A stretch of DNA of 64,000 nucleotides from a virus. Positions 12,346 to 51,886 of the stretch are shown here, in pieces (position 1 is the first letter of the stretch; every line of letters begins with the position of its first letter). The stretch spans positions 1 through 64,000 of the IMG/VR virus record IMGVR_UViG_3300021962_000077. One strand, 5' to 3'. The notes under the pieces are model-generated. The model had not been told where the DNA came from. It did not search any database and worked only from the letters and a program-made list of their open reading frames with translations. A program made the position numbers and the translations under genes.

Positions 12346-13260
12346 ATGAAAACCTTATGGACTGAAAAGTATAGGCCTAAAACTATTAACGGCTATGTTT
12401 TTAGAGACGATGCTCAAAAATCGCAAGTTAATCATTGGATTGAACAAAAGACTATCCCACATTTACTATTCAGCGGAAATGCAGGTATTGGTAAAACTAC
12501 CCTAGCAAAGATCTTGCTCAACGAACTAAACATAAATGATCTTGACATTTTAGAAATTAACGCTAGTCGTACAAACTCAGTAGAAGATGTTAGAGATAAA
12601 ATTGTAAACTTTGTCCAAATGATTCCATTTGGAGATTTTAAGGTAGTACTATTAGATGAAGCAGATTACTTGTCTCCCAACGCACAAGCGGCTCTTCGCG
12701 GTGTTATGGAAGAATATCACACAACCGCACGATTTATTCTTACTTGCAATTATCCTAACAGAATCATTCCTGCTTTACATAGTCGATGCCAAGGATTTCA
12801 CATTGAGCGTGTCGATATTACTGAGTTTACCGCTCGTGTTGCTACTATTCTTGTTGAAGAAAACATTGAGTTTGACCTCGATACCCTAGACACATTTGTC
12901 AAGGCAACTTATCCAGACTTACGCAAGTGTATCAATACTGTACAAATGAATAGTATGAGTGGTACATTACATACTCCAGAAAAAGGAGATACTGGAGATG
13001 CAGACTATAAGATTGAAATGGTTGAACTGTTTAAGAAAGGTAAGATTTCAGAAGCACGTAAACTAGTATGTGCTCAGGCTAGACCAGAAGAAATTGAAGA
13101 TATCTATAGATGGCTCTATGATAATGTAGCTATTTTTGGAGAAGAGTCTAAACAAGAAGCTGCCATATTGTGGATTAAACAAGGCATGGTAGATCATACG
13201 CTAGTAATCGATCCAGAAATTAATCTAGCAGCAACATTAATTAGGCTAGCACATATTTAA
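12346..13260 (+). CDS. 44: Sliding-clamp loader ATPase subunit (gp44/RFC-like)
   Basis: 304 residues. An RFC-type AAA+ ATPase: RFC box KYRPKTINGYV at the N-terminus, Walker A GNAGIGKTT (44-52), Walker B VVLLDEADYLS (about 100-110), and the SRC motif HSRCQGF with the arginine finger for inter-subunit ATP hydrolysis. It loads the gp45-like clamp (gene at 38202) for the gp43-like polymerase. In T4 the partner gp62 lies next door; no gp62-like gene is recognised here, so it may be divergent or elsewhere. Confidence 0.92.
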   Translation: MKTLWTEKYRPKTINGYVFRDDAQKSQVNHWIEQKTIPHLLFSGNAGIGKTTLAKILLNELNINDLDILEINASRTNSVEDVRDKIVNFVQMIPFGDFKVVLLDEADYLSPNAQAALRGVMEEYHTTARFILTCNYPNRIIPALHSRCQGFHIERVDITEFTARVATILVEENIEFDLDTLDTFVKATYPDLRKCINTVQMNSMSGTLHTPEKGDTGDADYKIEMVELFKKGKISEARKLVCAQARPEEIEDIYRWLYDNVAIFGEESKQEAAILWIKQGMVDHTLVIDPEINLAATLIRLAHI

Positions 13261-18341: not shown

Positions 18342-18370
18342 TTGACAAAGCAAGGCCATGGCAGTATAAT
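18342..18370 (+). promoter_or_regulatory. Consensus sigma-70 promoter for dnaJ
   Basis: TTGACA (18342-18347), 17-bp spacer, TATAAT (18365-18370), both perfect. Expected +1 about 18377. Confidence 0.92.
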
Positions 18371-18408: not shown

Positions 18409-19242
18409 ATGGATTACTATGAAACACTAGGCGTAAGAAAAAACGCCACCCAAGAAGAAATTAAAAAGGCCTACAGAAGCCTAGCAAATAAACACCATCC
18501 TGATAAAGGGGGAGATCAAGCTAAATTTAAAGACATTAGTGTGGCCTATGATACACTCAGTGACCCGCAAAAACGTCAAGAATATGATATGGGTGGAAGT
18601 CAAAACATTCATATCAATAGCGGCAATTTTCACGATGTATTTAATAATGCTTTTCAATTCCATTTTGGAGGAGGGCATCCATTTGGAGATATATTTGGAC
18701 GTAGGCAGCATCGAAATCGAGACTTAAACATACAATGTCAAGTTACACTACTTGACTCGTTTTCTGGTAAACAGTTTGAAGCTAGTTACACATTACCTAG
18801 TGGAAAAAATCAAACAGTAGTAATTAATGTGCCGCCCGGAGTAGACAATGGAGGTACTATAAGATACCAAGGGCTAGGGGACGATAGTATTCCTGGTATC
18901 CCTCGTGGAGATCTAAATGTCACTGTGATAATTATTCCAGATTCTAAATACGTGCGGCATAATGATGATCTGTATACTAATTTAGAAATAAATCCAATCG
19001 AAGCTATGATTGGCACTAGAAAGACTGTAAAAAATATAGACGGACAAGTGCTGAATATCGATGTACGTGCAGGAGTAAGTGATGGTACAGAATATGCAAG
19101 GGCAGGTATGGGATTTCCAAATATGCGAGGAGGAGCACGGGGAAGATTTGTTATAGTTGTAAAAATTAAAGCTCCGGCTGTGACCAATCCAGACTTAATA
19201 AAAAAATTGCAAAAAATTAACGAAGAAATCAACGGCTCTTGA
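18409..19242 (+). CDS. DnaJ-like (type II Hsp40) co-chaperone
   Basis: 277 residues. The J domain (1-65) has HPD at 30-32 for stimulating DnaK. A Gly/Phe linker ([14 protein letters not shown]) follows, then two C-terminal substrate-binding beta domains with [18 protein letters not shown] and [19 protein letters not shown]. The four CxxCxGxG zinc repeats of type I DnaJ are absent, so it is the CbpA/DnaJB type. It has its own strong host-type promoter, suggesting early expression. The stop codon lies in the -35 box of the next promoter. Confidence 0.9.
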
Positions 19243-19266
19243 CATAAATCAAAAAGAGTGTATAAT
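19239..19266 (+). promoter_or_regulatory. Consensus sigma-70 promoter for clpA-like gene
   Basis: TTGACA (19239-19244), 16-bp spacer, TATAAT (19261-19266). The dnaJ stop TGA is inside the -35 box. It lies 23 nt upstream of the ATG at 19290. Confidence 0.9.
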
Positions 19267-19289: not shown

Positions 19290-21551
19290 ATGGTAGAGCC
19301 TAGCAATGATTTACAAATGGTTTTTGAAAAAGCCATAAGTGTAGCCAAACAACTTCAGCATGAATATTTGACAATTGAACATTTGTTATTTGCCATGCTA
19401 TGCGAAGAAAGTTTTAGTAATTGTATTTCAGGATACGGTGCAGACCCTGAGTACATAAAAAAGAATTTAGAACATTATTTGAAAAATAAATGTGATGAAA
19501 TAGTAGGGGCTAGTACAGATGTTAAACCTCGAAAAACACAAACGGTAGAACGTGTATTAAATCGTGCATTTACACAAGTTTTATTCAATGGTCGTCAAAA
19601 AATTGAACCCACAGATGTTTTTGTTGCTATGATGGCTGAAAAACGTAGTTGGAGTTACTACTACATTCAGCAAGCAGAAATAGACAAAGATAAATTTGCC
19701 GAATATATCAACAGTGGAATAGAAAGTGACGAAGAAGAACAAGTGCCAGACAATCATGCAGATAAAGCATTAAAAGCATTTACCACAAATCTAAACGATG
19801 CTGTTAAGAAAAATAAAGTAGATCCAGTAATTGGCAGAATTGAAGAACTGGAAAATATAAGCCTTGCATTGGGTAGACGCAGTAAGAATAATGTTATTCT
19901 TGTTGGAGATCCTGGTGTAGGTAAAACTGCCATTGCAGAAGGTCTAGCATTTAACATTGTTAAAGGTGCAGTTCCAGAATTTCTTAAAGACTATCAAGTG
20001 TTTAATTTAGACATTAGTGCTATGTTAGCAGGTAGCAAATATCGTGGAGATTTCGAAGAAAGATTTAAACTTGTACTAAAAGGCCTACAAAAGAAAGGTA
20101 AAACAGTACTGTTCATTGACGAAGCACACATGATTAGTGGTGCAGGTTCGGCTAGCAATAGTGCTAACGATCTTAGCAATATGATGAAACCTGCTCTAAG
20201 TAAAGGTAATATCAAAGTAATTGCCAGCACTACTTGGGAAGAATATCGCAAACACTTCGAAAAGGATCGCGCATTGATGCGTCGATTCCAACGTATTACT
20301 GTAGACGAGCCTACTACAGAAGTTACACTACAGATACTTAAAGGCATCAAAAAATATTATGAACAATTTCATAATACAAAAATTAAAGATGATGCTCTAC
20401 AGGCTGCAATTAAACTTAGTGTAAGATATCAAACAGATAAAAAATTACCTGACAAAGCAATCGACTTAATCGACTTGGCTTGCAGCCGATTTAATCTTAA
20501 ACTAGCAGATGAAAGAGTGGTAACTGAAAATGAAATTCAATTTGAAATAGCCAAACTTCTTCAAATGCCTGAAGAACAGATCAGAGAAGCAGAAGATGTA
20601 GGCTTAGTAAAATTAGAAGATCAATTATCAGGAGAAGTTTATGGACAAGGCAAAGCAATTACAGAAATTGTTGATAAGATTCTTGTTGCTAGGGCTGGAC
20701 TTAAACCAGAAAACAAACCAGTTGGGAGTTTTGTATTCATGGGGCCAACCGGTTGCGGCAAAACAGAAACTGCTAAAGCTCTAAGTAAACACCTTGGTGT
20801 AAAACTTATTAGATTTGATATGAGTGAATATCAAGAAAAACACAGTATAAGTAAACTGATCGGTAGTCCTCCTGGGTATGTTGGCTTTGAAGAAAATGCC
20901 GGTCTGTTAATTACTCAGGTACAAGAGTCACCTAACTGTGTTTTATTATTCGATGAAATTGAAAAATCGCATCCTGATGTGAGTACAGTATTATTACAAA
21001 TGATGGATAACGGATTTGTTACAGGATCAAATGGGAAACGTGCTGATTGCAGAAATGTTATTTTAATTCTGACAACAAATCTTGGGGCTCAAGAAGCTGA
21101 AAAAAATACCATAGGTTTTGGTCGTCAAGAAAAAGATCATGATGATAAAGATCTTAAGAAATTCTTTACTCCAGAGTTCCGTAATAGACTCGATGCGATT
21201 GTTACATTTAATAAACTAAACAAAGAGACTATGGTTAAAATTATTCATAAGTTTGTTGATGAATTAAAAGATCAAGTCAAAGATAAAAGCATACGTGTTA
21301 AAATCGACTCTGCTGCTACAGAGTGGTTAATTGAAAAAGGGTTTGACGCTAAGATGGGTGCAAGACCGTTACAGCGTGTTATTGATAAAGAAATTAAACG
21401 TCCTATGGCTAGGTTAATGCTATTTGGAGATTTAAAACAAGGCGGTAGTTTAAGTATTACTGTTAAAGATGATCAAATTTTCTTAGTAGCAAAACCAAAA
21501 GCAGTTCGGATACCATTATTAACTGTGGAAAAGACAAGTGATACGGTGTAA
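19290..21551 (+). CDS. ClpA-like AAA+ unfoldase with ClpP-docking loop
   Basis: 753 residues, RBS AAAAGGAA. Order: N-terminal Clp_N-like repeat domain (YLTIEHLLFAMLCEES), D1 with Walker A GDPGVGKTAIAEG (about 206) and Walker B VLFIDEAH, D2 with Walker A GPTGCGKTETAKAL (about 484) and Walker B LLFDEIEKSHPDV. The long ClpB middle domain is absent, so it is ClpA/C-class rather than a disaggregase. At about residues 608-610 it has IGF, in the D2 loop where ClpA has IGL and ClpX has IGF for docking to ClpP. No phage ClpP is seen in the window, so it could redirect host ClpP. Confidence 0.9.
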   Translation: MVEPSNDLQMVFEKAISVAKQLQHEYLTIEHLLFAMLCEESFSNCISGYGADPEYIKKNLEHYLKNKCDEIVGASTDVKPRKTQTVERVLNRAFTQVLFNGRQKIEPTDVFVAMMAEKRSWSYYYIQQAEIDKDKFAEYINSGIESDEEEQVPDNHADKALKAFTTNLNDAVKKNKVDPVIGRIEELENISLALGRRSKNNVILVGDPGVGKTAIAEGLAFNIVKGAVPEFLKDYQVFNLDISAMLAGSKYRGDFEERFKLVLKGLQKKGKTVLFIDEAHMISGAGSASNSANDLSNMMKPALSKGNIKVIASTTWEEYRKHFEKDRALMRRFQRITVDEPTTEVTLQILKGIKKYYEQFHNTKIKDDALQAAIKLSVRYQTDKKLPDKAIDLIDLACSRFNLKLADERVVTENEIQFEIAKLLQMPEEQIREAEDVGLVKLEDQLSGEVYGQGKAITEIVDKILVARAGLKPENKPVGSFVFMGPTGCGKTETAKALSKHLGVKLIRFDMSEYQEKHSISKLIGSPPGYVGFEENAGLLITQVQESPNCVLLFDEIEKSHPDVSTVLLQMMDNGFVTGSNGKRADCRNVILILTTNLGAQEAEKNTIGFGRQEKDHDDKDLKKFFTPEFRNRLDAIVTFNKLNKETMVKIIHKFVDELKDQVKDKSIRVKIDSAATEWLIEKGFDAKMGARPLQRVIDKEIKRPMARLMLFGDLKQGGSLSITVKDDQIFLVAKPKAVRIPLLTVEKTSDTV

Positions 21552-22173
21552 AGAAACTAAAAAACTGTTCATGGACGAGTATGCTTACAAGGCAGTATTA
21601 GTTGTTCCAGGAGCACACTGGTTTAGATCAAATGATTTGGATGGTGTTAGTAAAAGAATACGTGCCCTAAAACGCGGTGGTAGTCCCTACAAGTCTGGTT
21701 TTATTACTATAAAAAATGAAGATGATCTACAGTATATAGAAAAACTTGTCAAAGTATTAAAGCAGATGACTGACTTTAATATTAGAGTTGAGATCCCGTT
21801 AGTCAGTGTCTATACTAATTTACCAACAGACATTGACAAATTATGTAGTTTAGATTCAGAACGAGTCAAATATATATCTAAACCTCCTAGCCAAGGACTA
21901 GATAAAAATATAGTTGTTATGAATCGTACAGGTTGGGATTTTAAAATAACACTAGGACCAACTAGCCAAAATTACAGTAATTTTGTCGAATGGGCAGAAA
22001 ACGGGAAAGATCTTGTTAAATTAACAGGCAGCGCAAAGAGAGCTCTAATGCGTGACTCCCACTGGGGCGGCAGTCATTTTTATGCTAAAAACGACAAAGC
22101 AGTTACTATGACTCGTGTGTTTTTAGGCGATACAATCAGTAGAGTCGATCAAGTAGTTAATCTTAAAGATTAG
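21538..22173 (+). CDS. Conserved T4-like hypothetical protein
   Basis: 211 residues from a GTG overlapping the previous gene by 14 nt (a GGAAAAG RBS precedes); an ATG at 21571 is an alternative start. The segment YKAVLVVPGAHWFRSNDLDG resembles a conserved protein of T4-like marine phages. Mixed alpha/beta with no catalytic motif recognised. Function unknown. Confidence 0.6.
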   Translation: MIRCKETKKLFMDEYAYKAVLVVPGAHWFRSNDLDGVSKRIRALKRGGSPYKSGFITIKNEDDLQYIEKLVKVLKQMTDFNIRVEIPLVSVYTNLPTDIDKLCSLDSERVKYISKPPSQGLDKNIVVMNRTGWDFKITLGPTSQNYSNFVEWAENGKDLVKLTGSAKRALMRDSHWGGSHFYAKNDKAVTMTRVFLGDTISRVDQVVNLKD

Positions 22174-22227
22174 GAAATATCTGTATACTGCGTTTACGAT
22201 AAATACATTGTAAATGCAGGATATTTC
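22174..22227 (+). promoter_or_regulatory. RBS-sequestering hairpin with late promoter box in its loop
   Basis: GAAATATC (22174-22181), a 6-nt bulge, and CTGCGTTTAC (22188-22197) pair with GTAAATGCAG + GATATTTC (22210-22227): 18 bp including one G-U. The RBS AGGA (22218-22221) is inside the 3' arm. The loop carries GATAAATA (22198-22205), a T4-late-like box; its start (about 22211) would remove the 5' arm and free the RBS. Confidence 0.6.
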
Positions 22228-22229
22228 TT

Positions 22230-22577
22230 ATGAAAATAATAGAGCTATTTGAGGACTTTCAACTACCTTCAGAAAAAAAGGACGATAAACTACCCTTTGA
22301 TCTTAAAGACGATTTAGAATTCTTCATGCGAAATGACGATGATTTTTATCGTCGTCACTACTATCCTCACATCATCAAATGTAAAAACTATATGGAATCA
22401 GGCAAAAACCTGGGTCCACGTGCATTTAAAAAACTTGTAAACCACGCTTACGAGTGCTATACTAAAAAATTCCCTGTTCGTCAATTACCTGATTCATTAG
22501 AAGAAGACATAGTTAACAAGATATGTTCTAAATTGCATAATGAAGAAGTAAAATATATTAAAGAAAAAGTCTATTGA
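22230..22577 (+). CDS. Hypothetical protein with leader-type N-terminus
   Basis: 115 residues. The N-terminus MKIIELFEDF matches a short hydrophobic/charged leader shared by several genes up to 32 kb. The rest is helical and charged, and looks like a small cytoplasmic domain (LKDDLEFFMRNDDDFYRRHY, ARG-Lys-rich). It is controlled by the hairpin/late-box element just upstream. No family recognised. Confidence 0.6.
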   Translation: MKIIELFEDFQLPSEKKDDKLPFDLKDDLEFFMRNDDDFYRRHYYPHIIKCKNYMESGKNLGPRAFKKLVNHAYECYTKKFPVRQLPDSLEEDIVNKICSKLHNEEVKYIKEKVY

Positions 22578-22578
22578 T

Positions 22579-23310
22579 ATGAAACTCAAAGAAGGCGGCA
22601 ATGTAGTTCCAGGTGCTGTAGAACTTACACGCAAAAATTTTAATACAGCAGTACATAATCTAAAAAAAGTGTTGCCTGACGGTATTAATGTATATCCTAT
22701 TGGATCAGCTGGGCACAAAGAAGTTAGCAGTGACATTGATGCACTTATTGATGCCGGCGAACTTATGGCTGTTTTTCCCGCTAAAGAATTAAAATTAAGT
22801 CGTAAAGCATTAGAAGATTACTTTAAAGAACAAGGCCTGTTTGCTGCTAGAACAGGAGTAAGTATCCACGTTGGTATCCCTACTGGTGAAGGCGATAGCG
22901 TAGTACAAGTAGACTTAATGGCAGTAGAAAATGCTGCCCGCGTACAACCTTTACACACGCATGATTATACCGATCCAACTATGAAAGGTGGAACCTTACA
23001 TGGTATGTGGGCAGATCTTGCCAACCTAAGTTCTTTACCCGATCATTCTAGTTTAATGATGAGTCCATATAAAGGTCTAGTAGACAGAGAAACTAAAGAA
23101 TTAATAACACACGACAAAGACGAGATAGCAAAAATTATTATCGGTCCTACTGCCAGTGCAAGCGACATGGGTAATCCTAAAAGAGTATTAGCCGCGCTAC
23201 AACAATATCCAGACAAGTATAAAGCAATCAAAGACAAATACTTCCCACAAGAAAGTCTAGGCACAGCCAGTTGGTTTAGACAAATGATTAATATTGCGAG
23301 CGTAAAATGA
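22579..23310 (+). CDS. Pol-beta-type nucleotidyltransferase-like protein
   Basis: 243 residues. The superfamily signature is clear: YPIGSAGHKEVSSDIDALID, with GS at 42-43 and the first two metal-binding acids D52 and D54, and a third Asp in the strand VVQVDLM (D112). The N-terminus MKLKEGGN gives LKE-G, a hydrophobic-x-Glu step like the leaders of its neighbours. Substrate unknown; the family includes tRNA CCA-adders, antibiotic nucleotidyltransferases and toxin MNTs. It overlaps the next gene by ATGA. Confidence 0.75.
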   Translation: MKLKEGGNVVPGAVELTRKNFNTAVHNLKKVLPDGINVYPIGSAGHKEVSSDIDALIDAGELMAVFPAKELKLSRKALEDYFKEQGLFAARTGVSIHVGIPTGEGDSVVQVDLMAVENAARVQPLHTHDYTDPTMKGGTLHGMWADLANLSSLPDHSSLMMSPYKGLVDRETKELITHDKDEIAKIIIGPTASASDMGNPKRVLAALQQYPDKYKAIKDKYFPQESLGTASWFRQMINIASVK

Positions 23311-24458
23311 GACTAAGACAACTGTTTGAAGCTGCGCCTCCGGCTGTTGGTCGTAAATATCAACATATTGAAGATCTTGTTTTCACCAATGGTTCAAGTG
23401 GTGGCTTGCATGCCATTGAACGTATGCGTCATATGACAGAAGCAGGTGGCAACATTGAATTAAAATGGGATGGCAGTCCTGTTATATATTGGGGCAGAGA
23501 TGAAGCGGGTAGATTTAGTCTAATACCAAAAAATGCTTGGGAATATCTCAAAAGAGGTAAAACAGAAACTAATACTGGTGCCAAGACAGTAATGAATTCT
23601 GCAGAAGATGTTAGAAATTTTATCATGCAGACCGGCAAAGCAGAACCAGGTAGAGAAGCAGAAAGAAAACAGTACGCTAAACAACTAGCTGATCTTTGGC
23701 ATTTGTTTGAACAGGCTAGTCCTGAACGTGGATTTATTGAAGGCGGTCTATTATTCTTTCCTGGTGCGCCAGCTGTACTAAACAAACAAACACTAGAATG
23801 GGATTTCACTCCTAATATTACCAGTTTCCATATACCAAAAGATTCAGAACTAGGTAAACGTATTGGCAAAGCTAAAGTAATGATTGCTGCCACTGGCTAC
23901 TATGAATCACTGGGTAGTAGTGATGAATCACGTTATCCGAACGCAGAAGAATTATCTACACCCACAGTTATTGTGCAAGGTACTACCTATGTAGAAGAAG
24001 CACCTAATATTCCGCAAGAAGGTCTTGACCGTATAGAAAATTTCATACAAACAAATGCTGCTGCCATTGACGGATTTATTGCAGGTCAGCCTGGTCTAAG
24101 TAAACCAGGTGATGTTCTTTATAAGTTTTACAATCAAAATTTACGAATAGCTGGTGTTAAGCAAAAGTTTATCGATTGGGCTACTGCTAATTTGTCAGCA
24201 GGACAAGCACAAAAGGTAGTAAAAGATCCTAGACTAAATGTTGTATTAGATGCTGTGGAAATGTTAACTAACGAAAAGATGAAGATTATTCAACAGTTAA
24301 GTCAAGGTACACATGGAAATATTAGACAGACTAAACCAGAAGGTTATGTGCAAGCGCATCCAGGAGCACGAGCATCTGGAGAACCGTTTAAACATGATTT
24401 GCCTGGACAGTTTGTCAAGGCTATTGACCAAGCCAATTGGGCTCCAAGGAAAGACTAA
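23307..24458 (+). CDS. Ligase-like protein with KxDG motif
   Basis: 383 residues. MRLRQLFEAA gives LFE-A, a perfect match to the T4 gp21-type site LxE|A. ELKWDGSPVIYWGRDE contains KWDG (K53-G56), like motif I of covalent nucleotidyltransferases (DNA/RNA ligases, where Lys is adenylated). FIEGGLLFFPG could be motif III and EGYVQAH motif IV-like. The assignment is tentative because the later motifs are weak. It lies between two other nucleotidyl-transfer-fold proteins. It resembles a conserved marine T4-like phage family of unknown function. Confidence 0.55.
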   Translation: MRLRQLFEAAPPAVGRKYQHIEDLVFTNGSSGGLHAIERMRHMTEAGGNIELKWDGSPVIYWGRDEAGRFSLIPKNAWEYLKRGKTETNTGAKTVMNSAEDVRNFIMQTGKAEPGREAERKQYAKQLADLWHLFEQASPERGFIEGGLLFFPGAPAVLNKQTLEWDFTPNITSFHIPKDSELGKRIGKAKVMIAATGYYESLGSSDESRYPNAEELSTPTVIVQGTTYVEEAPNIPQEGLDRIENFIQTNAAAIDGFIAGQPGLSKPGDVLYKFYNQNLRIAGVKQKFIDWATANLSAGQAQKVVKDPRLNVVLDAVEMLTNEKMKIIQQLSQGTHGNIRQTKPEGYVQAHPGARASGEPFKHDLPGQFVKAIDQANWAPRKD

Positions 24459-24459
24459 T

Positions 24460-25266
24460 ATGCGTCTAAGAGAATTATTACAAGAAGATATAGATAGAAC
24501 AGGCGAAGGTAAAAGTGCAGTTGTAGGCTGGGGGCGTGGTATGGGGCATAAAGGCCATATGTTCTTGGCCAGTAGTGTTATTACACAAGCCAACGATACC
24601 GATAGTGATCCATATTTTGTTGTTAGTCGTACTGTTGGCAAAGATGATCCTATTACGCCAGAAGAAAAATTAGCAATTTATAAAAAAGTATTTCCTAAAC
24701 ACGGTCATATCTTTCAAACAGCTACAGAAGAAATGCCCGACCTTACACGAGTCTTAACTAGATTAAATCAGCATGGGTACACAGATGTAACTGTGGTTGT
24801 AGGTGCAGATCAAGTTAACGCTCTAAGTTATGTAAAAAATTATAATGGTAAACCTAACAAAGCAGGAGATATTCCGTTTCATTTTAACACATTAAATGTT
24901 ATCAGCAGACAAGAAACAAATGATCCAAGCCGCGAACAAGAAGGACCACGTGCTACACCTATGCGAGCTGCTTTAATGGATCCTACAAAGTCAGAAGAAG
25001 AAAAATTTGCTGTATGGCGTGATGCTATGAGTCCAGAGCTTAGTGACGAAGAAGTTATGGATCTAATGCAGAAAGCACAACAACGTATGGCTAGTTTTGA
25101 AAAACCTAAAGCGGCAAAGAAAAGTAAAGAAAAAGAAGTAGCAGAAGTTGCACCCAAAGGTTGGGAAGGTACTGTTAAAGCTATGAAGAAACACGATGAT
25201 ATTGATAATCCATGGGCACTAGCACATTGGATGAAAAACAAAGGCTATAAAAGTCATAAGAAATGA
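24460..25266 (+). CDS. HxGH nucleotidylyltransferase-like protein
   Basis: 268 residues from ATG 24460; longer frames overlap the previous gene. The leader MRLRELLQED precedes VVGWGRGMGHKGHMFLA, in which H30-x-G-H33 matches the HxGH motif, and ATPMRAALM matches the ISSTxxR motif of the class that makes NAD, CoA and CDP-compounds. VVVGADQVNAL resembles the family core strand. The last ~70 residues are Lys-rich, ending HWMKNKGYKSHKK. Substrate unknown. Confidence 0.7.
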   Translation: MRLRELLQEDIDRTGEGKSAVVGWGRGMGHKGHMFLASSVITQANDTDSDPYFVVSRTVGKDDPITPEEKLAIYKKVFPKHGHIFQTATEEMPDLTRVLTRLNQHGYTDVTVVVGADQVNALSYVKNYNGKPNKAGDIPFHFNTLNVISRQETNDPSREQEGPRATPMRAALMDPTKSEEEKFAVWRDAMSPELSDEEVMDLMQKAQQRMASFEKPKAAKKSKEKEVAEVAPKGWEGTVKAMKKHDDIDNPWALAHWMKNKGYKSHKK

Positions 25267-25550
25267 AACAGTATAGAATTACATCAGCCGATATTAATCA
25301 AAGTAGCCCAGACGATTGTTATCTTGCACCTGAAGATCCTATACATGAATTAAAAGCCATACAACATCTAGCTGGATTAGGCAGTGATGCTAGACTACAT
25401 GAATTGCGTGTCAAACAAGGTAGTAATATATCTGTAACTGGTATGGAAAAAGCAGAGCTAATGCGTAAGCATAATATTAAACCCGGAACTGACGAATGGT
25501 TTAAACTTTGGTTTAGCAAGCCTTATCTTACAGGAGAAAAACCTGTATGA
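25263..25550 (+). CDS. Small hypothetical protein
   Basis: 95 residues, ATGA overlap on both sides. Hydrophilic (LAPEDPIHELKAIQHLAG, MRKHNIKPGTDEWFKLWF). Lacks the leader found on its neighbours. No family recognised. Confidence 0.6.
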   Translation: MKQYRITSADINQSSPDDCYLAPEDPIHELKAIQHLAGLGSDARLHELRVKQGSNISVTGMEKAELMRKHNIKPGTDEWFKLWFSKPYLTGEKPV

Positions 25551-26950
25551 AAATTTTAGATATTCTTGAAGACCAAACTGATCAGCCAGATCTGATACAG
25601 GCATTTAAAGATTTCCTGCCGTTGGCAATGAAAGAACTTGATCTTTCTCAACTACCACCTATTAAATTAGAACCAAAAATAGAACAAAAAAATCAGCCCA
25701 CCTTTGGACGGTTTCAAGAAAAGGCACAGGTGATTTATCTTGGTATAAAAAATAGGCATCCTATTGACATACTAAGAACTCTGGCACACGAGCTTGTACA
25801 CTATAAACAACTATTAGACGGTAAACTTGGAAGTAAGCACAGTGGTGACACCGGAAGTCCAACTGAGAACGAAGCACATGTAAGAGCAGGAATTATAATG
25901 AGACATTTTGGCAAACAATTTCCTCATTATTTTGATGATCAAGCAGTAGAACTAGACGAAGATGCAAGTGATCGTGAAATACATAACTATGAAAAACTAG
26001 ACAAGATTCTAGTTTTATTATGTAAAATGGTCGTTAAAGGTCAAAAGAAAGACAAAGATTACTATGGTATGGTTGCAGCCTGTGTTTTAGATCCCGATAA
26101 TCGCATGGTTGCTAAGGTAAACTATCCTAGAGAAGACGGACTACGTGTTCATGCAGAACGTGCTGCTATGGAAGCATATTATGACAAATATGGAGAAATA
26201 CCCGAAGGTAGTATTGTAGTGACCACACTAAGTCCTTGCAATGAGTTTAGTGACGAAACAGCAGACGGACGTGCGGGTAACAACTGTGTAGATCTAATTA
26301 ATAATAGTCCAATACGTAAAGTCTATTGTGGTTATATGGATCCTAGTCAAGGTGACGAATCACATGCGGAACGTGACTTTAATCTTATGGAAACTGAAAA
26401 CGGTAGCATACGTGAACTATGCAAATCTTTTGCAGATACTTTTTTAGACGAAGATCAACATCCAAATGACATACCACGCGGTCCTGAATTTAAACCTACT
26501 ATGCCAGCAGGTACTGTTAGAGTAGATGTAAGCGATGTATATGACTGGTATAAGTTAGGTAAAAATATCAGCAACTTAGGTAATGCTAAAGCTAGTGATT
26601 TTGGTAAGGGACCTCCTAGTACTATTATGGCATTTGGCAGCGAGCCTGAAGAACACAAGTATATTAAGAATCTAAAGAAGTTAGGATTAGATACTACTGA
26701 CATAGATCCCCTTGATCCTAAGCAACCTAAAAAAATGCCTCGTCAGAAGGTTGATCCTACTTACAACGTAGGAGAAAATTTTGCTGATGGTAAAAATCCT
26801 GGACGCAAAGGTCTAGCCAAACGCAGCGGTGTTAATACTAAAGCATCAGTAAGTACATTACGCAACGTGGCTAAACACAGCTCGGGTGAAAAGGCTCGTA
26901 TGGCACATTGGCTAGCCAACATGAAGGCTGGTAAGGCTAAAAAGAAATGA
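25547..26950 (+). CDS. Metallopeptidase-deaminase fusion
   Basis: 467 residues. After the leader MKILDILEDQ comes a zincin domain with LAHELVHYKQ (HExxH 81-85) and a candidate third ligand in ENEAHV. A second domain is deaminase-like: VHAERAAMEAYY (HAE, about 202) and LSPCNEF followed by NNCVDLI (a PC...C pair separated by about 15 residues instead of 2), with preceding ACVLDPDNRMVA. The C-terminus is Lys/Gly-rich and ends MAHWLANMKAGKAKKK. The combination suggests a processed, nucleic-acid-acting effector, but both activities are inferred. Confidence 0.7.
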   Translation: MKILDILEDQTDQPDLIQAFKDFLPLAMKELDLSQLPPIKLEPKIEQKNQPTFGRFQEKAQVIYLGIKNRHPIDILRTLAHELVHYKQLLDGKLGSKHSGDTGSPTENEAHVRAGIIMRHFGKQFPHYFDDQAVELDEDASDREIHNYEKLDKILVLLCKMVVKGQKKDKDYYGMVAACVLDPDNRMVAKVNYPREDGLRVHAERAAMEAYYDKYGEIPEGSIVVTTLSPCNEFSDETADGRAGNNCVDLINNSPIRKVYCGYMDPSQGDESHAERDFNLMETENGSIRELCKSFADTFLDEDQHPNDIPRGPEFKPTMPAGTVRVDVSDVYDWYKLGKNISNLGNAKASDFGKGPPSTIMAFGSEPEEHKYIKNLKKLGLDTTDIDPLDPKQPKKMPRQKVDPTYNVGENFADGKNPGRKGLAKRSGVNTKASVSTLRNVAKHSSGEKARMAHWLANMKAGKAKKK

Positions 26951-27546
26951 CTCTAGTTTATATACATGGTGCAAGTGCTACTAGCGAAAGTTTTAACTAC
27001 ATTCGCGAGCACATACCCGGAAAAAACATATCTGTTAACTATAACAGTGCCGATGGGTTTGAACATAACCTTAAAGATATGCAGACTGCACTAACAGATA
27101 TAGAAGATATTTTCTTTGTTGCACACAGCCTAGGGGGTATTTACGCATTGCACCTTGCAAATTATATGCCCAATCAAGTTATAGGTGCTGTAACTCTAAG
27201 CACGCCATATGGCGGTGCAGAACATGCAGACTATGCCAAATATTTTTTACCTTTTAGTAGATTACTACGTGATATAGGACCTAGTAGCTGGCCTATGCGA
27301 CAAGCAAATAAAATAGAAATACACCATCCTTGGACCAATGTAGTTACTGTGAAAGGATCGGCCCCTTGGATTATAGGCGATAATGATGGTGTTGTCACTG
27401 TTCGTAGCCAAAAAGAACACGAACACGATATGGAAATTATAGAAGTAAACATTAATCATTACGAAGTAGTGCTAAGTGAACAAGTTGTTGACATTATTAA
27501 AGAACGAATAAATATGCATACGAGTCAAAAATATGAAAATACTTGA
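26947..27546 (+). CDS. Alpha/beta-hydrolase (lipase/esterase-like)
   Basis: 199 residues. Oxyanion segment YIHGASATSESF, nucleophile elbow VAHSLGGIYALH (AHSLGG in place of GHSLGG), acid candidate in IGDNDGVVTV and His in NHYEVV form a complete triad in the right order. The PNQVIGAVTLSTPYGG segment is lipase/PGAP1-like. Substrate unknown; lipid or ester bonds are likely. The start overlaps the fusion gene by ATGA. No leader of the kind seen in its neighbours. Confidence 0.82.
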   Translation: MTLVYIHGASATSESFNYIREHIPGKNISVNYNSADGFEHNLKDMQTALTDIEDIFFVAHSLGGIYALHLANYMPNQVIGAVTLSTPYGGAEHADYAKYFLPFSRLLRDIGPSSWPMRQANKIEIHHPWTNVVTVKGSAPWIIGDNDGVVTVRSQKEHEHDMEIIEVNINHYEVVLSEQVVDIIKERINMHTSQKYENT

Positions 27547-27910
27547 AATCATTACGGAAAGCGGTGGAATGAAACCTATACATCCGCAGCACAAAGCGGC
27601 TATTAAAAATGCCACTACTTTTCCATCGATGAATATGAATTCTGGAAGTCAATATTTAGGATATCGTATGGGCATTGCTCTAGCAGGTGCTCCTGAATAT
27701 CCCACTAAACAAGAAGCAGATAACTGGATCGGAGGAGATCCTTTACTAGCGCCATATACTGAAGAAGAAAACGAAATGATAAATGCCGCTGCCAAACAAG
27801 TAGGCGGAGGTAAAAGGCAAACATGGAGTAACAATCGCAGCTTAGAAACTGCGGATGTAAACAAAACAAGTCCTGTGGCTAAACGCAAAAAGAACAAATA
27901 CGGAGTTTAA
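27533..27910 (+). CDS. Hypothetical protein with leader-type N-terminus
   Basis: 125 residues. MKILEIITESGG resembles the shared leader (ITE-S). A middle segment YLGYRMGIALAGAPE is followed by an acidic helical part and a basic end (VAKRKKNKYGV). It resembles conserved small proteins of T4-like marine phages. Function unknown. Confidence 0.62.
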   Translation: MKILEIITESGGMKPIHPQHKAAIKNATTFPSMNMNSGSQYLGYRMGIALAGAPEYPTKQEADNWIGGDPLLAPYTEEENEMINAAAKQVGGGKRQTWSNNRSLETADVNKTSPVAKRKKNKYGV

Positions 27911-27911
27911 A

Positions 27912-28547
27912 ATGAAGATAACAGATTTATTAAATGAAGAACAGATTGCAGAAATTAGTCTAGGTGATTATCGTAAAAAAGCTATGTTAAACAAAGCCAT
28001 GGCTCAGACAGACAAATTTTTTGGCCGTGACGATCCTGAAAAAGTAGCTCATGCTGATAGAACTATTGCAAAGAGAGAAAAGGGTCTAGCCCGTGCAGAT
28101 CATCGTGCAGAGAAAAAATTACAAGCAATGCCAAAACACGAACCAGCTCCTCGTGATCCTGCTGCTGATGCAGAACGATTGGCTAAAATGAAAGCACGTT
28201 TTAGACAGCTAGGCGGAACTAGTTATCAATATGCAGATAGGATGAGTGACGATGATCGTGAAGCACAAGATCTACATCAGGCTATTCAACGTTTAGAAAG
28301 ACACTTAGGAGAAACTGCTAGTGCCGGTGCTACTAGTGCTGCTAGTATTGGTACTGTAGATGCCCCACATATTAGCCCAGGTAAAGCACGTGGTAAAAAG
28401 AGCTATACCGGTAGCCCTAGTACAGGGTCCGGGACAAAAGCACCACCACAGCCTAAGATTATACAGCCTAAAACCAGTTCAGGTACTGCTAAGAATGCAT
28501 TAGATATGAAGGGCGCGAACTTATTCGGCGCACCTATTAAACGATAA
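27912..28547 (+). CDS. Hypothetical, candidate head-internal protein
   Basis: 211 residues. The leader MKITDLLNEE is followed by a basic, helical N-terminal half (KREKGLARADHRAEKK, Arg/Lys/Ala-rich) and a low-complexity C-terminal half (ETASAGATSAASIGT, TGSPSTGSGTKAPPQPK). Predicted strongly basic, as expected for a protein packed with DNA. No enzymatic motif. Confidence 0.6.
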   Translation: MKITDLLNEEQIAEISLGDYRKKAMLNKAMAQTDKFFGRDDPEKVAHADRTIAKREKGLARADHRAEKKLQAMPKHEPAPRDPAADAERLAKMKARFRQLGGTSYQYADRMSDDDREAQDLHQAIQRLERHLGETASAGATSAASIGTVDAPHISPGKARGKKSYTGSPSTGSGTKAPPQPKIIQPKTSSGTAKNALDMKGANLFGAPIKR

Positions 28548-46750: not shown

Positions 46751-47536
46751 ATGGTATATAACAAAGTATATGAAAGCAATGATCCAGAAGGATCAGAATC
46801 TTCAAGGCCTGTTTCAATAGATAATATAGATGAAGCAGAATATGAAGTTGGTTATTTAGGAGATGCTATTCGTGCCAAGATGCGGCGTGATGGTAAAAGA
46901 TTCTGGGCTGGTGACAATATCAGCAACTACCTACATCCTACAGATAAAGAACATCTAATTAATGAAGCCACAGAAGCATTTGAATTAGTACTAGACCGTT
47001 TATTAATTGATCGTGAAAACGATCCTAATAGTAAAGGCACAGCACGTAGACTGGCTAAAATGTATTTTGAAGAAATAATGGCAGGTAGATATGAACCAGC
47101 ACCAGATTGTACAGCGTTTCCTAATGATAGCGCGGATCGTTATGAGGGTATGCTTGTGGTTCGCAGTGAGCTTCGTAGTATGTGCAGTCATCACCATCAG
47201 CCTGTTAACGGTGTGGCTTATATTGGAATCATCGCCGCAGAAAAACTCATTGGATTGTCCAAGTACACACGTATTGCCCAATGGTGTGCTCGTAGAGGAA
47301 CCCTACAGGAAGAACTGTGTATTGACATAGCCAACGCAATCGAACAGGCCACAGGCAGTAATGATGTCGGTGTTTATATACAGGCTCAACATGGTTGTTG
47401 TGAAAACAGAGGAATTATGGCACACTCAAGTTTAACGCAGACTACAGTGTTGCGAGGGCTTTTCAAATCTGATACAAGCGTTAAAAAAGAGTTTATGGAC
47501 AATATTAAACTTCAACAAGATTTTGCACCGCGATGA
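46751..47536 (+). CDS. folE: GTP cyclohydrolase I (FolE-like)
   Basis: 261 residues. The zinc site is present: MCSHHHQPVNG (about 143; Cys-x-His-His) and QAQHGCCENRG with the third Cys. GLSKYTRIAQWCARRGTLQE resembles the GTP-binding LSK-x-x-R helix, and VLRGLF closes the fold. The common CEHH reads CSHHH, a variant also seen in phage deazaguanine pathways. It makes dihydroneopterin triphosphate from GTP, the first step to preQ0. Own promoter suggests early expression. Confidence 0.9.
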   Translation: MVYNKVYESNDPEGSESSRPVSIDNIDEAEYEVGYLGDAIRAKMRRDGKRFWAGDNISNYLHPTDKEHLINEATEAFELVLDRLLIDRENDPNSKGTARRLAKMYFEEIMAGRYEPAPDCTAFPNDSADRYEGMLVVRSELRSMCSHHHQPVNGVAYIGIIAAEKLIGLSKYTRIAQWCARRGTLQEELCIDIANAIEQATGSNDVGVYIQAQHGCCENRGIMAHSSLTQTTVLRGLFKSDTSVKKEFMDNIKLQQDFAPR

Positions 47537-47646
47537 TCATCACAAACTGCACAGGCGAGATTCGATTGCCTTGGGAACCAGGGCTGTTAGAATGGTTGCA
47601 GGAACACTATCCTGCCAGCCAATATAGAGTGGTAGAATTAACTTAA
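47533..47646 (+). CDS. 37-residue small protein after folE
   Basis: ATGA overlap with the folE stop. It reads MIITNCTGEIRLPWEPGLLE and ends WLQEHYPASQYRVVELT, a tidy amphipathic product that stops 11 nt before the next ATG. Unknown function; coding status likely given the coupling and RBS spacing to the next gene. Confidence 0.55.
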   Translation: MIITNCTGEIRLPWEPGLLEWLQEHYPASQYRVVELT

Positions 47647-47657
47647 AGGAAAACAAA

Positions 47658-47849
47658 ATGAGTAAATTGAGCAAATTGAATAAAGTAAACGAAAGTATCA
47701 CACTGCACCGTTATGACAACGGCTTTATGGTAGAAGTGGGTGGACGTGATGATGAAAACGATTGGAAAACTGCCAAGGTTCTTTGCAACACAGAAGAAGA
47801 AATGATCGCTGTGGTCAAAGAGTGGATCACTATGGAAATTGATACTTAA
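47658..47849 (+). CDS. Small hypothetical protein
   Basis: 63 residues, RBS AAAGGA. KLNKVNESITLHRYDNGFMV, then VEVGGRDDENDWKTAKVLCN; a small alpha/beta domain. Resembles small proteins of T4-like phages. Function unknown. Confidence 0.62.
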   Translation: MSKLSKLNKVNESITLHRYDNGFMVEVGGRDDENDWKTAKVLCNTEEEMIAVVKEWITMEIDT

Positions 47850-47859
47850 GGGGAAATTT

Positions 47860-48555
47860 ATGTTTGGATCTAACTATACAGAGTATAATGTTTTAAACTA
47901 TAGATCGGCTAGTGAGATTAATCAAGCTATGGGTAGAGTCTATGGCTATATGGGGCTAGCTACACTTGTCAGTATGTTGGTCAGTTTATTTGTAGGTACA
48001 ACACCTGAATTAGTAAACTTTTTCTTCACTGGCATTATGCATTGGATTGTAATTTTTGCACCGTTAGTTGCTGTAATTGGACTAACTATTGCATTGAATG
48101 CCAATCCGTCAAAAGAAATTGCACTTGCCATGCTTGTAGGTTTTTCAGCTATAATGGGGTTGAGCTTTGCTGTAATCTTTGCTGTATACACAATGGCTAG
48201 TATTTTTAGTGCATTTATGGGAGCAGCAGTGTTGTTCGGTACTATGAGTTTTTATGGTTACTTTACCAAAAAAGATCTAGATAGCCTAGGAAAATTTATG
48301 TTTGTTGGACTTATTGCTATTGTTATTGCCAGCCTTATCAATATTTTTGTTGGTAGTACTGTAATGCAAATGGTTATAAGTGCTTTGGCAATTATTATTT
48401 TTATGGGACTGACTGCTTATGACACTCAAAAGATTCGAGAAATTGTTAGCGCAGAAACTACACCAGCTGTAGAAATAAGTGGTGCATTAACACTGTACTT
48501 GGATTTTATTAATATATTCCTAAGTTTGCTACAGCTATTCGGTGATAGAAAATGA
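47860..48555 (+). CDS. Bax inhibitor-1 (YccA/YbhL-like) membrane protein
   Basis: 231 residues from ATG 47860 with RBS AAGGGG (a longer upstream frame lacks an RBS). Seven hydrophobic helices and the family C-terminal signature MGLTAYDTQKIREIV plus LYLDFINIFLSLLQLFG. Bacterial members such as YccA modulate the FtsH membrane protease; the eukaryotic BI-1 conducts calcium. In a phage it could protect from membrane-quality or death pathways (inference). Confidence 0.9.
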   Translation: MFGSNYTEYNVLNYRSASEINQAMGRVYGYMGLATLVSMLVSLFVGTTPELVNFFFTGIMHWIVIFAPLVAVIGLTIALNANPSKEIALAMLVGFSAIMGLSFAVIFAVYTMASIFSAFMGAAVLFGTMSFYGYFTKKDLDSLGKFMFVGLIAIVIASLINIFVGSTVMQMVISALAIIIFMGLTAYDTQKIREIVSAETTPAVEISGALTLYLDFINIFLSLLQLFGDRK

Positions 48556-48770
48556 ATTCAGCAGAACAGGCAAGTAATCTAATTTTTAGAGCAAAACATC
48601 TTGTTGAGTTTATAGTAGAAACAGAAGTGCCAGAAAATTTTAGATTTAATGGCACTATTCCGTTTGACATTACTATAAAAGATAATATAATTACTGCAAA
48701 GGTTTATGCTATAGATTTCGATGAGGCTGTACATAGGCTAAATGAATATTTAGAAAGTTGCAATGACTAG
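48552..48770 (+). CDS. Small hypothetical protein
   Basis: 72 residues, ATGA overlap with the membrane protein gene. NLIFRAKHLVEFIVETEVPE then an alpha/beta end (VYAIDFDEAVHRLNEYLE). No family recognised. Confidence 0.6.
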   Translation: MNSAEQASNLIFRAKHLVEFIVETEVPENFRFNGTIPFDITIKDNIITAKVYAIDFDEAVHRLNEYLESCND

Positions 48771-48787
48771 TTGTCAGAAAGATTAAA

Positions 48788-49648
48788 ATGAGTAAAATAA
48801 AAATAGCCGAATTATTCTATAGTATACAAGGAGAAGGACGTTACATGGGTGTACCGTCCGTATTCTTACGCACCTTTGGTTGTAACTTTAAATGTGCAGG
48901 GTTTGGTATGCCGGCAGGACAACTAAGCACTGAAGTTGAAGATATTGCCTACACTCATGAAAATATAGAATCGTTTCAACGTTACGAAGAGCTACCTTTG
49001 GTTAGTACAGGCTGCGATAGTTATGCATCGTGGGATCCAAGATTCAAAGATCTGAGTCCTATGCTAGAAAGCAATGCTATTGTTAATCGTATTATGGAAA
49101 TACTTCCACATCGTCGTTGGGAAGACGAACATCTTGTTATTACTGGCGGTGAGCCATTGCTGGGGTGGCAACGTGCTTATCCAGATCTATTAGATCATCC
49201 TAGTATGCACAGACTCAAAGAGATCACATTTGAAACCAATGGCACTCAAAAACTCACACCTGAGTTTAAAGAATATTTGTTAGGATGGGATCGACAGGAT
49301 CATCAGCAGAGAGAAATCACTTTCAGTGTAAGTGCCAAACTTCCTTGCAGTGGAGAAAAGTGGGAAGAAGCTATTCTACCAGAAGTTGTATGTGAATACG
49401 AAGAAGTAGGCACAGCGTATCTAAAATTTGTTATTGCTACAGAAGAAGATAGAGACTATGCATTGAAAGCGGCTGGCGAATATCGTGCGGCTGGTTTTAA
49501 AGGACACGTTTATCTCATGCCAGTGGGTGGTGTAGAAAGTGTTTACACGTTGAATAATCGTCGTGTTGCAGAACTGGCAATGAAACATGGTCTACGCTAC
49601 AGCGACAGACTACAAGTACCATTGTTTAAAAATGAATGGGGAACCTAA
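48788..49648 (+). CDS. queE: QueE-like radical SAM 7-carboxy-7-deazaguanine synthase
   Basis: 286 residues. YSIQGEGRYMGVPSVFLRTF is the QueE N-terminal signature; the cluster Cys reads C32-x3-C36 then, after a 39-residue insertion, C76 in TGCDSYASWD, in place of the classical CxxxCxxC. LVITGGEPLLGWQ binds SAM. Other QueEs also have modified cysteine spacing, but this insertion is long. It would turn CPH4 into CDG in the preQ0 pathway feeding DpdA. The stop overlaps the next ATG. Confidence 0.88.
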   Translation: MSKIKIAELFYSIQGEGRYMGVPSVFLRTFGCNFKCAGFGMPAGQLSTEVEDIAYTHENIESFQRYEELPLVSTGCDSYASWDPRFKDLSPMLESNAIVNRIMEILPHRRWEDEHLVITGGEPLLGWQRAYPDLLDHPSMHRLKEITFETNGTQKLTPEFKEYLLGWDRQDHQQREITFSVSAKLPCSGEKWEEAILPEVVCEYEEVGTAYLKFVIATEEDRDYALKAAGEYRAAGFKGHVYLMPVGGVESVYTLNNRRVAELAMKHGLRYSDRLQVPLFKNEWGT

Positions 49649-51850: not shown

Positions 51851-51886
51851 GATAAATATATGCGTAGTTATCAAGGACGCATATAT
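51851..51886 (+). promoter_or_regulatory. Late promoter box with start-codon hairpin
   Basis: GATAAATA (51851-51858) overlaps the 5' arm ATATATGCGT (51856-51865), which pairs perfectly (10 bp) with ACGCATATAT (51877-51886). The RBS AAGGA (51873-51877) is at the loop/arm edge and the A and U of the start codon (51885-51886) are in the 3' arm. Initiation about 6 nt after the box (51864) would remove nearly the whole 5' arm. Confidence 0.65.

Follow-up and report, generated by a model that had tools for sequence, protein, structure and literature searches.

How might a candidate late gene block be kept silent when it lies directly behind an operon that is probably transcribed early? This question is raised by a locus of a large, uncultured T4-related phage in IMG/VR record IMGVR_UViG_3300021962_000077, of which positions 1-64,000 (64,000 nt, hereafter the window, numbered on the + strand) were analysed; the source of the window is a 73.6-kb fragment. 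Downstream of a ClpA/B-type AAA+ ATPase gene (clpA, 19290-21551, +) and of a gene without assigned function (21538-22173, +), the start of a gene for a 115-residue protein (22230-22577, +) is covered by a hairpin that carries a late-promoter box in its loop. Very probably, this hairpin is a late-only expression switch of the bacteriophage T4 type, placed where an early operon gives way to a block of late genes.

The + strand RNA of positions 22171-22230 folds, by minimum free energy, into one bulged hairpin of 24 bp. Its outer 5' arm (22171-22181), which starts at the stop codon of the preceding gene (TAG, 22171-22173, the hairpin base), pairs over 11 bp with an outer 3' arm (22220-22230) that extends to the A of the start codon. 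A 6-nt bulge on the 5' side (22182-22187) separates this outer stem from an inner stem of 13 bp (22188-22200 with 22207-22219), which is closed by a 6-nt loop (22201-22206). The initial annotation had described 18 bp and a 12-nt loop: the hairpin itself stands but the count differs, because neither the basal pairs nor the three weak pairs at the top had been counted. Hairpin, box and ribosome-binding site (RBS) do lie where it had located them, and the AGGA Shine-Dalgarno (SD) sequence (22218-22221, +, 8 nt before the ATG at 22230) is covered as claimed, being fully paired in read-through RNA together with the A of the ATG. The fold has a predicted energy of -24.4 kcal/mol, compared with -10.0 +/- 2.4 in dinucleotide shuffles (z -6.0, 0/200 shuffles), and z is -4.4 when shuffling is confined to the 45 nt before the box and the remainder is fixed. 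Pairing of the SD and AUG by a stable structure in RNA initiated upstream is indicated both by this prediction and by covariation (see below). An Rfam search of the window found nothing.

The box, GATAAATA (22198-22205, +), extends from the uppermost part of the 5' arm into the loop. Known late boxes read NATAAATA in cyanophages (S-PM2) and TATAAATA in T4 (PMC2984593). In the window, ATAAATA is found six times on the + strand and never on the - strand, far more rarely than expected (32.6), and all six copies stand 25-84 nt before a gene start. Relatives were examined for the same motif; the distant ones were reached via ClpA, and their loci are labelled with L-numbers. Across 80 related clpA loci (1.26 Mb), ATAAATA occurs 207 times on the coding strand and once on the opposite strand; in a reduced set of 342 kb the ratio is 49:0, and ATAAATA is the sole heptamer of five A and two T that is absent from the antisense strand. 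A NATAAATA late box upstream of late genes was found for the window lineage, and from strand bias and placement we take ATAAATA to act as its late-promoter box. These two properties bear out the T4-late-like box that had been proposed for the hairpin.

What would such a box do inside a hairpin? Perfect TTGACA/TATAAT promoters, spaced by 16-17 nt, were found at eight sites (18342, 19239, 33744, 38156, 48664, 52576 and 53763 on the + strand, 33217 on the - strand); placed mostly just before genes, these are likely early promoters. Two of them, both perfect and of sigma70 type, precede the hairpin: one (18342-18370, +, TTGACA-17-TATAAT), with a putative early role, stands before the dnaJ-like gene at 18409, and the other (19239-19266, +, TTGACA-16-TATAAT), the presumed source of early read-through, stands just before clpA. 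A promoter before clpA scores at least 10/12 in 20 of 66 clpA loci, compared with ~3% in a random-segment control. No convincing terminator was found between the dnaJ and clpA promoters and the hairpin, and from these two perfect promoters early transcripts probably reach it. RNA from them would read past the stop at 22173 into the hairpin, where pairing to the 5' arm would close both the SD and the start codon at 22230 to ribosomes. Late in infection, host RNA polymerase with a phage late sigma factor (gp55 type) would recognise GATAAATA in the loop and start near 22211 (predicted range 22209-22214, +, ~6 nt after the box, a position set from prior knowledge by analogy with T4 spacing). With the start assumed there, the promoter element lies such that late RNA would lack the 5' arm, expose AGGA and be translated.

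Both RNAs were folded, one of the checks that the initial annotation had called for, and by prediction the RBS is closed in the read-through RNA and open in the late one. The predicted cost of opening the RBS falls from 18.0 kcal/mol in read-through RNA to 2.9 kcal/mol in RNA from ~22211, in line with the claim that initiation at this point would remove the 5' arm. At the other boxes of the window the difference is only 0.1-1.6 kcal/mol, except at a second switch at 51852 (7.7 kcal/mol).

The upstream stop codon touches the hairpin base in the window and abuts the hairpin in most relatives (~6-31 nt from the box), as might be expected of translational coupling, in which ribosomes ending at 22173 would open the hairpin and early translation would depend on the upstream gene, with no shut-off. 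This seems to us very improbable: a ribosome at the stop covers the outer arm only, so that the 13-bp inner stem with half of the SD remains, and coupling leaves unexplained the promoter box that is kept in the loops of relatives.

We then asked of the relatives whether the arrangement is conserved, and their comparison supplies the strongest support for the switch. A box follows clpA in all relatives whose sequence extends far enough, usually 609-701 nt downstream (~1030 nt in one clade), and in about 50 non-redundant relatives it takes up a matching position, behind clpA and its neighbour gene. Close relatives keep the arms and the box while the bulge sequence varies. In distant relatives the arms are rewritten, for example as AGTCCCTTATTTC..GAAATAAGGGACT and ATCCCTTTTGCG..CGTAAGAGGGAT; nevertheless, the rewritten 3' arms still contain an SD, with the start codon directly after it in many loci. 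In 13 aligned hairpins, 96% of cells are paired and two-sided changes are seen at 9 of 13 positions, compared with 55-59% paired in slid registers and 78% (maximum 90%) when arms are exchanged between loci. This covariation was counted in Python on a set registered by hand, since MAFFT misregistered the pairs when the window type was aligned jointly with the others.

The inner arms also form a near-perfect DNA palindrome around the box, as would an operator bound by a repressor that covers the late promoter in the manner of I-TevI at its own promoter, and a promoter of this kind is known to be autorepressed (PMC2988022). The arms are, however, wholly different between relatives and yet covary, the 3' arm coincides with the SD and ATG, and other boxes in the same genomes stand without a palindrome. 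Moreover, RNA from the + strand folds more stably than RNA from the - strand at 36 of 50 post-clpA sites (p 2e-4) and at these sites only, as expected from G-U pairs (-28.4 vs -22.7 for the fold in the window). Because the + strand folds better there, an RNA element is favoured over a DNA operator, which we consider exceedingly unlikely.

To put a number on the arrangement, the pairing of sequence upstream of the predicted start with sequence downstream of it was scored against shuffled upstream sequence. In the 50 non-redundant post-clpA boxes this arm coupling has a mean z of -2.1, with 48% of boxes below -2; in 91 other boxes from the same loci the mean z is +0.3 and 1% lie below -2 (Mann-Whitney p 6e-15, a value that overstates independence because the loci are related, the argument being carried by the covariation and by the contrast with the other boxes). 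The post-clpA box of L050 and the first box of L035, which probably lie within the upstream gene and show no coupling, were retained in these statistics. As a positive control, the same metric recovered T4 e (z -3.3) and I-TevII (z -5.1), did not pick alt and missed soc.

Some relatives place a different structure at the same site. In seven loci (L051, L054, L061, L065, L087, L090 and L020), a short leader open reading frame (ORF) has its ATG under the post-clpA hairpin and stops just before the main gene start or overlaps it; leader-peptide coupling is possible in these relatives. In L022, L023 and L031, the ATG of the leader ORF reads ACG. In L026, L030, L036 and L048, the post-clpA box is directly followed by a long stem and then a T-rich run, an arrangement that is terminator-like and that late initiation would disable. 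Could the window hairpin likewise be an intrinsic terminator of early transcription, which late initiation inside it escapes? A crude scan does list it as terminator-like, and besides these four loci, a plain terminator separates clpA from the late box in the Pseudomonas jumbo phage PA5oct. We nevertheless find this unlikely for the window, where the inner stem is followed by GATATTTCTT with no U tract and the outer stem carries the pairing on over the SD and ATG.

Several points weigh against a T4-type switch. Taken one by one, about half of the relatives fall short of significance for arm coupling, and in one group the hairpin lies over the start of the short leader ORF and the main gene start is not covered. 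The outer stem could be opened by a ribosome that terminates there, although the 13-bp inner stem would stay. gp55 is absent from the 73.6-kb fragment of the window, and the gp45 sliding clamp was found in none of the searched sequences, where control searches were also silent. In its favour, four large relatives carry a gene of the gp55 family, which includes the T4 late sigma factor. From the structure, the box and its placement, the conservation and the covariation, we infer promoter activity, a start site, translational silence and late timing. Altogether, the strand bias and placement of the box, the opening cost and the compensatory arm changes support a switch of the T4 gene e type as the best explanation, in agreement with the initial annotation.

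A second switch of related design is found at 51852-51886 (+), with its box at 51852-51858 and arms at 51856-51865 and 51877-51886. Here the hairpin closes over the ATG at 51885, with this start codon in the 3' arm, and late transcription is predicted to start within the 5' arm. Of 81 loci, 76 have the box of this second switch, and the TATGCGTA..TACGCATA hairpin recurs in most of the loci listed. The gene at 51885 encodes a small conserved protein without assigned function that is also found in PA5oct.

Which proteins would be held back by the switch at 22230? The gated protein belongs to no known family and had no match in a cultured-phage protein search, PHROGs or Pfam. It begins with MKIIELFEDF, and it is followed by a block of late candidates (22579-28547, +), many of which share an N-terminal tag (for example those at 23307, 24460, 25547, 27533 and 27912); among the tags in 22230-28547 are MKIIELFEDF, MRLRQLFEAA, MKILDILED and MKITDLLNEE. 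A tag of the M[KR]I..LL/LFE type was found in 39 of 168 block ORFs and in 6 of 390 ORFs elsewhere (20 loci, homologues inflating the counts). In T4, the head-packaged Alt starts with MELITELFDE, which the block tag resembles, and IpII and IpIII start with MKTYQEFIAE; T4 IPII and IPIII carry a capsid-targeting sequence of ~10 residues (PMC9958956). Because the tag is concentrated in the block and Alt-like, and a capsid-targeting sequence is known in T4, it is a reasonable guess that the tagged block proteins are packaged in the head, with the tag as a possible head-targeting sequence.

The T4-type genes of the fragment include a clamp loader (gp44 at 12346), a DNA polymerase, PhoH, baseplate connectors and a gp47-like exonuclease. 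Cultured phages gave no near DNA match to the window; among those examined, PA5oct has the gene order around clpA seen in the window. Elsewhere in the window, GTP cyclohydrolase-like and QueE-like genes (46751-49648) suggest 7-deazaguanine synthesis, and 30832-31269 matches a PHROG DNA-binding family, its sequence resembling a Dps/ferritin-type protein.

The window switch is a further case of an already known T4 mechanism, and its interest comes from its fixed position and from the terminator-type variants. Because PA5oct has a terminator and L026, L030, L036 and L048 have terminator-like stems, the conserved feature seems to be that the late block is insulated, with different devices serving this end. 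We give an even chance to a broader proposal, that in a large and mostly uncultured lineage of phages the promoter-in-loop hairpin serves as a conserved boundary element between early and late genes, fixed in its post-clpA position and interchangeable in design (an RBS, terminator or leader-ORF hairpin, or the separate terminator of PA5oct), which insulates a whole block of head-packed proteins and not a single lysis or endonuclease gene. The gene e mechanism, known from a few genes, would thereby extend to a regulator that recurs at a conserved position in many sequence versions. It would also make promoter-in-hairpin switches findable by computation alone, and it offers a testable reason for the early silence of late, possibly head-packaged proteins.

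How does the window switch compare with known systems? T4 gene e is silent early and translated late, a hairpin hiding its RBS in early read-through RNA (PMC3014915). Both systems hide the RBS in read-through RNA and place the promoter so that late RNA lacks the 5' arm, and gene e adjoins the head-internal genes ipIII and ipII much as the window switch precedes a candidate head block. In contrast, e encodes a lysozyme whereas the window gates a non-lysozyme gene, the window box lies in the loop of a 24-bp bulged hairpin, and the predicted coupling is stronger in the window (-19.2 kcal/mol) than in T4 e (-14.9 kcal/mol). The hairpins of T4 I-TevI, I-TevII, I-TevIII and segB and of Aeh1 mobE (PMC2988022) share the logic of the window but gate homing endonucleases, whereas a head-of-operon gene without assigned function is gated here. 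The clpA locus of PA5oct has the synteny PhoH, virion genes, dnaJ and clpA, and the gene that follows, detected in virions, is preceded by a GATAAATA box; the locus differs in having a strong terminator after clpA (L259:10215-10291) and no RBS hairpin. In phage Phosso, a cultured relative that infects Sinorhizobium, the gene at record position 129695 (L260:10117-10157) is preceded by ATAAATA and then a hairpin over the start codon; the gene is a different one and the box lies at the base of the 5' arm, a placement shared with the 51852 switch of the window, so that Phosso carries a candidate open to direct testing.
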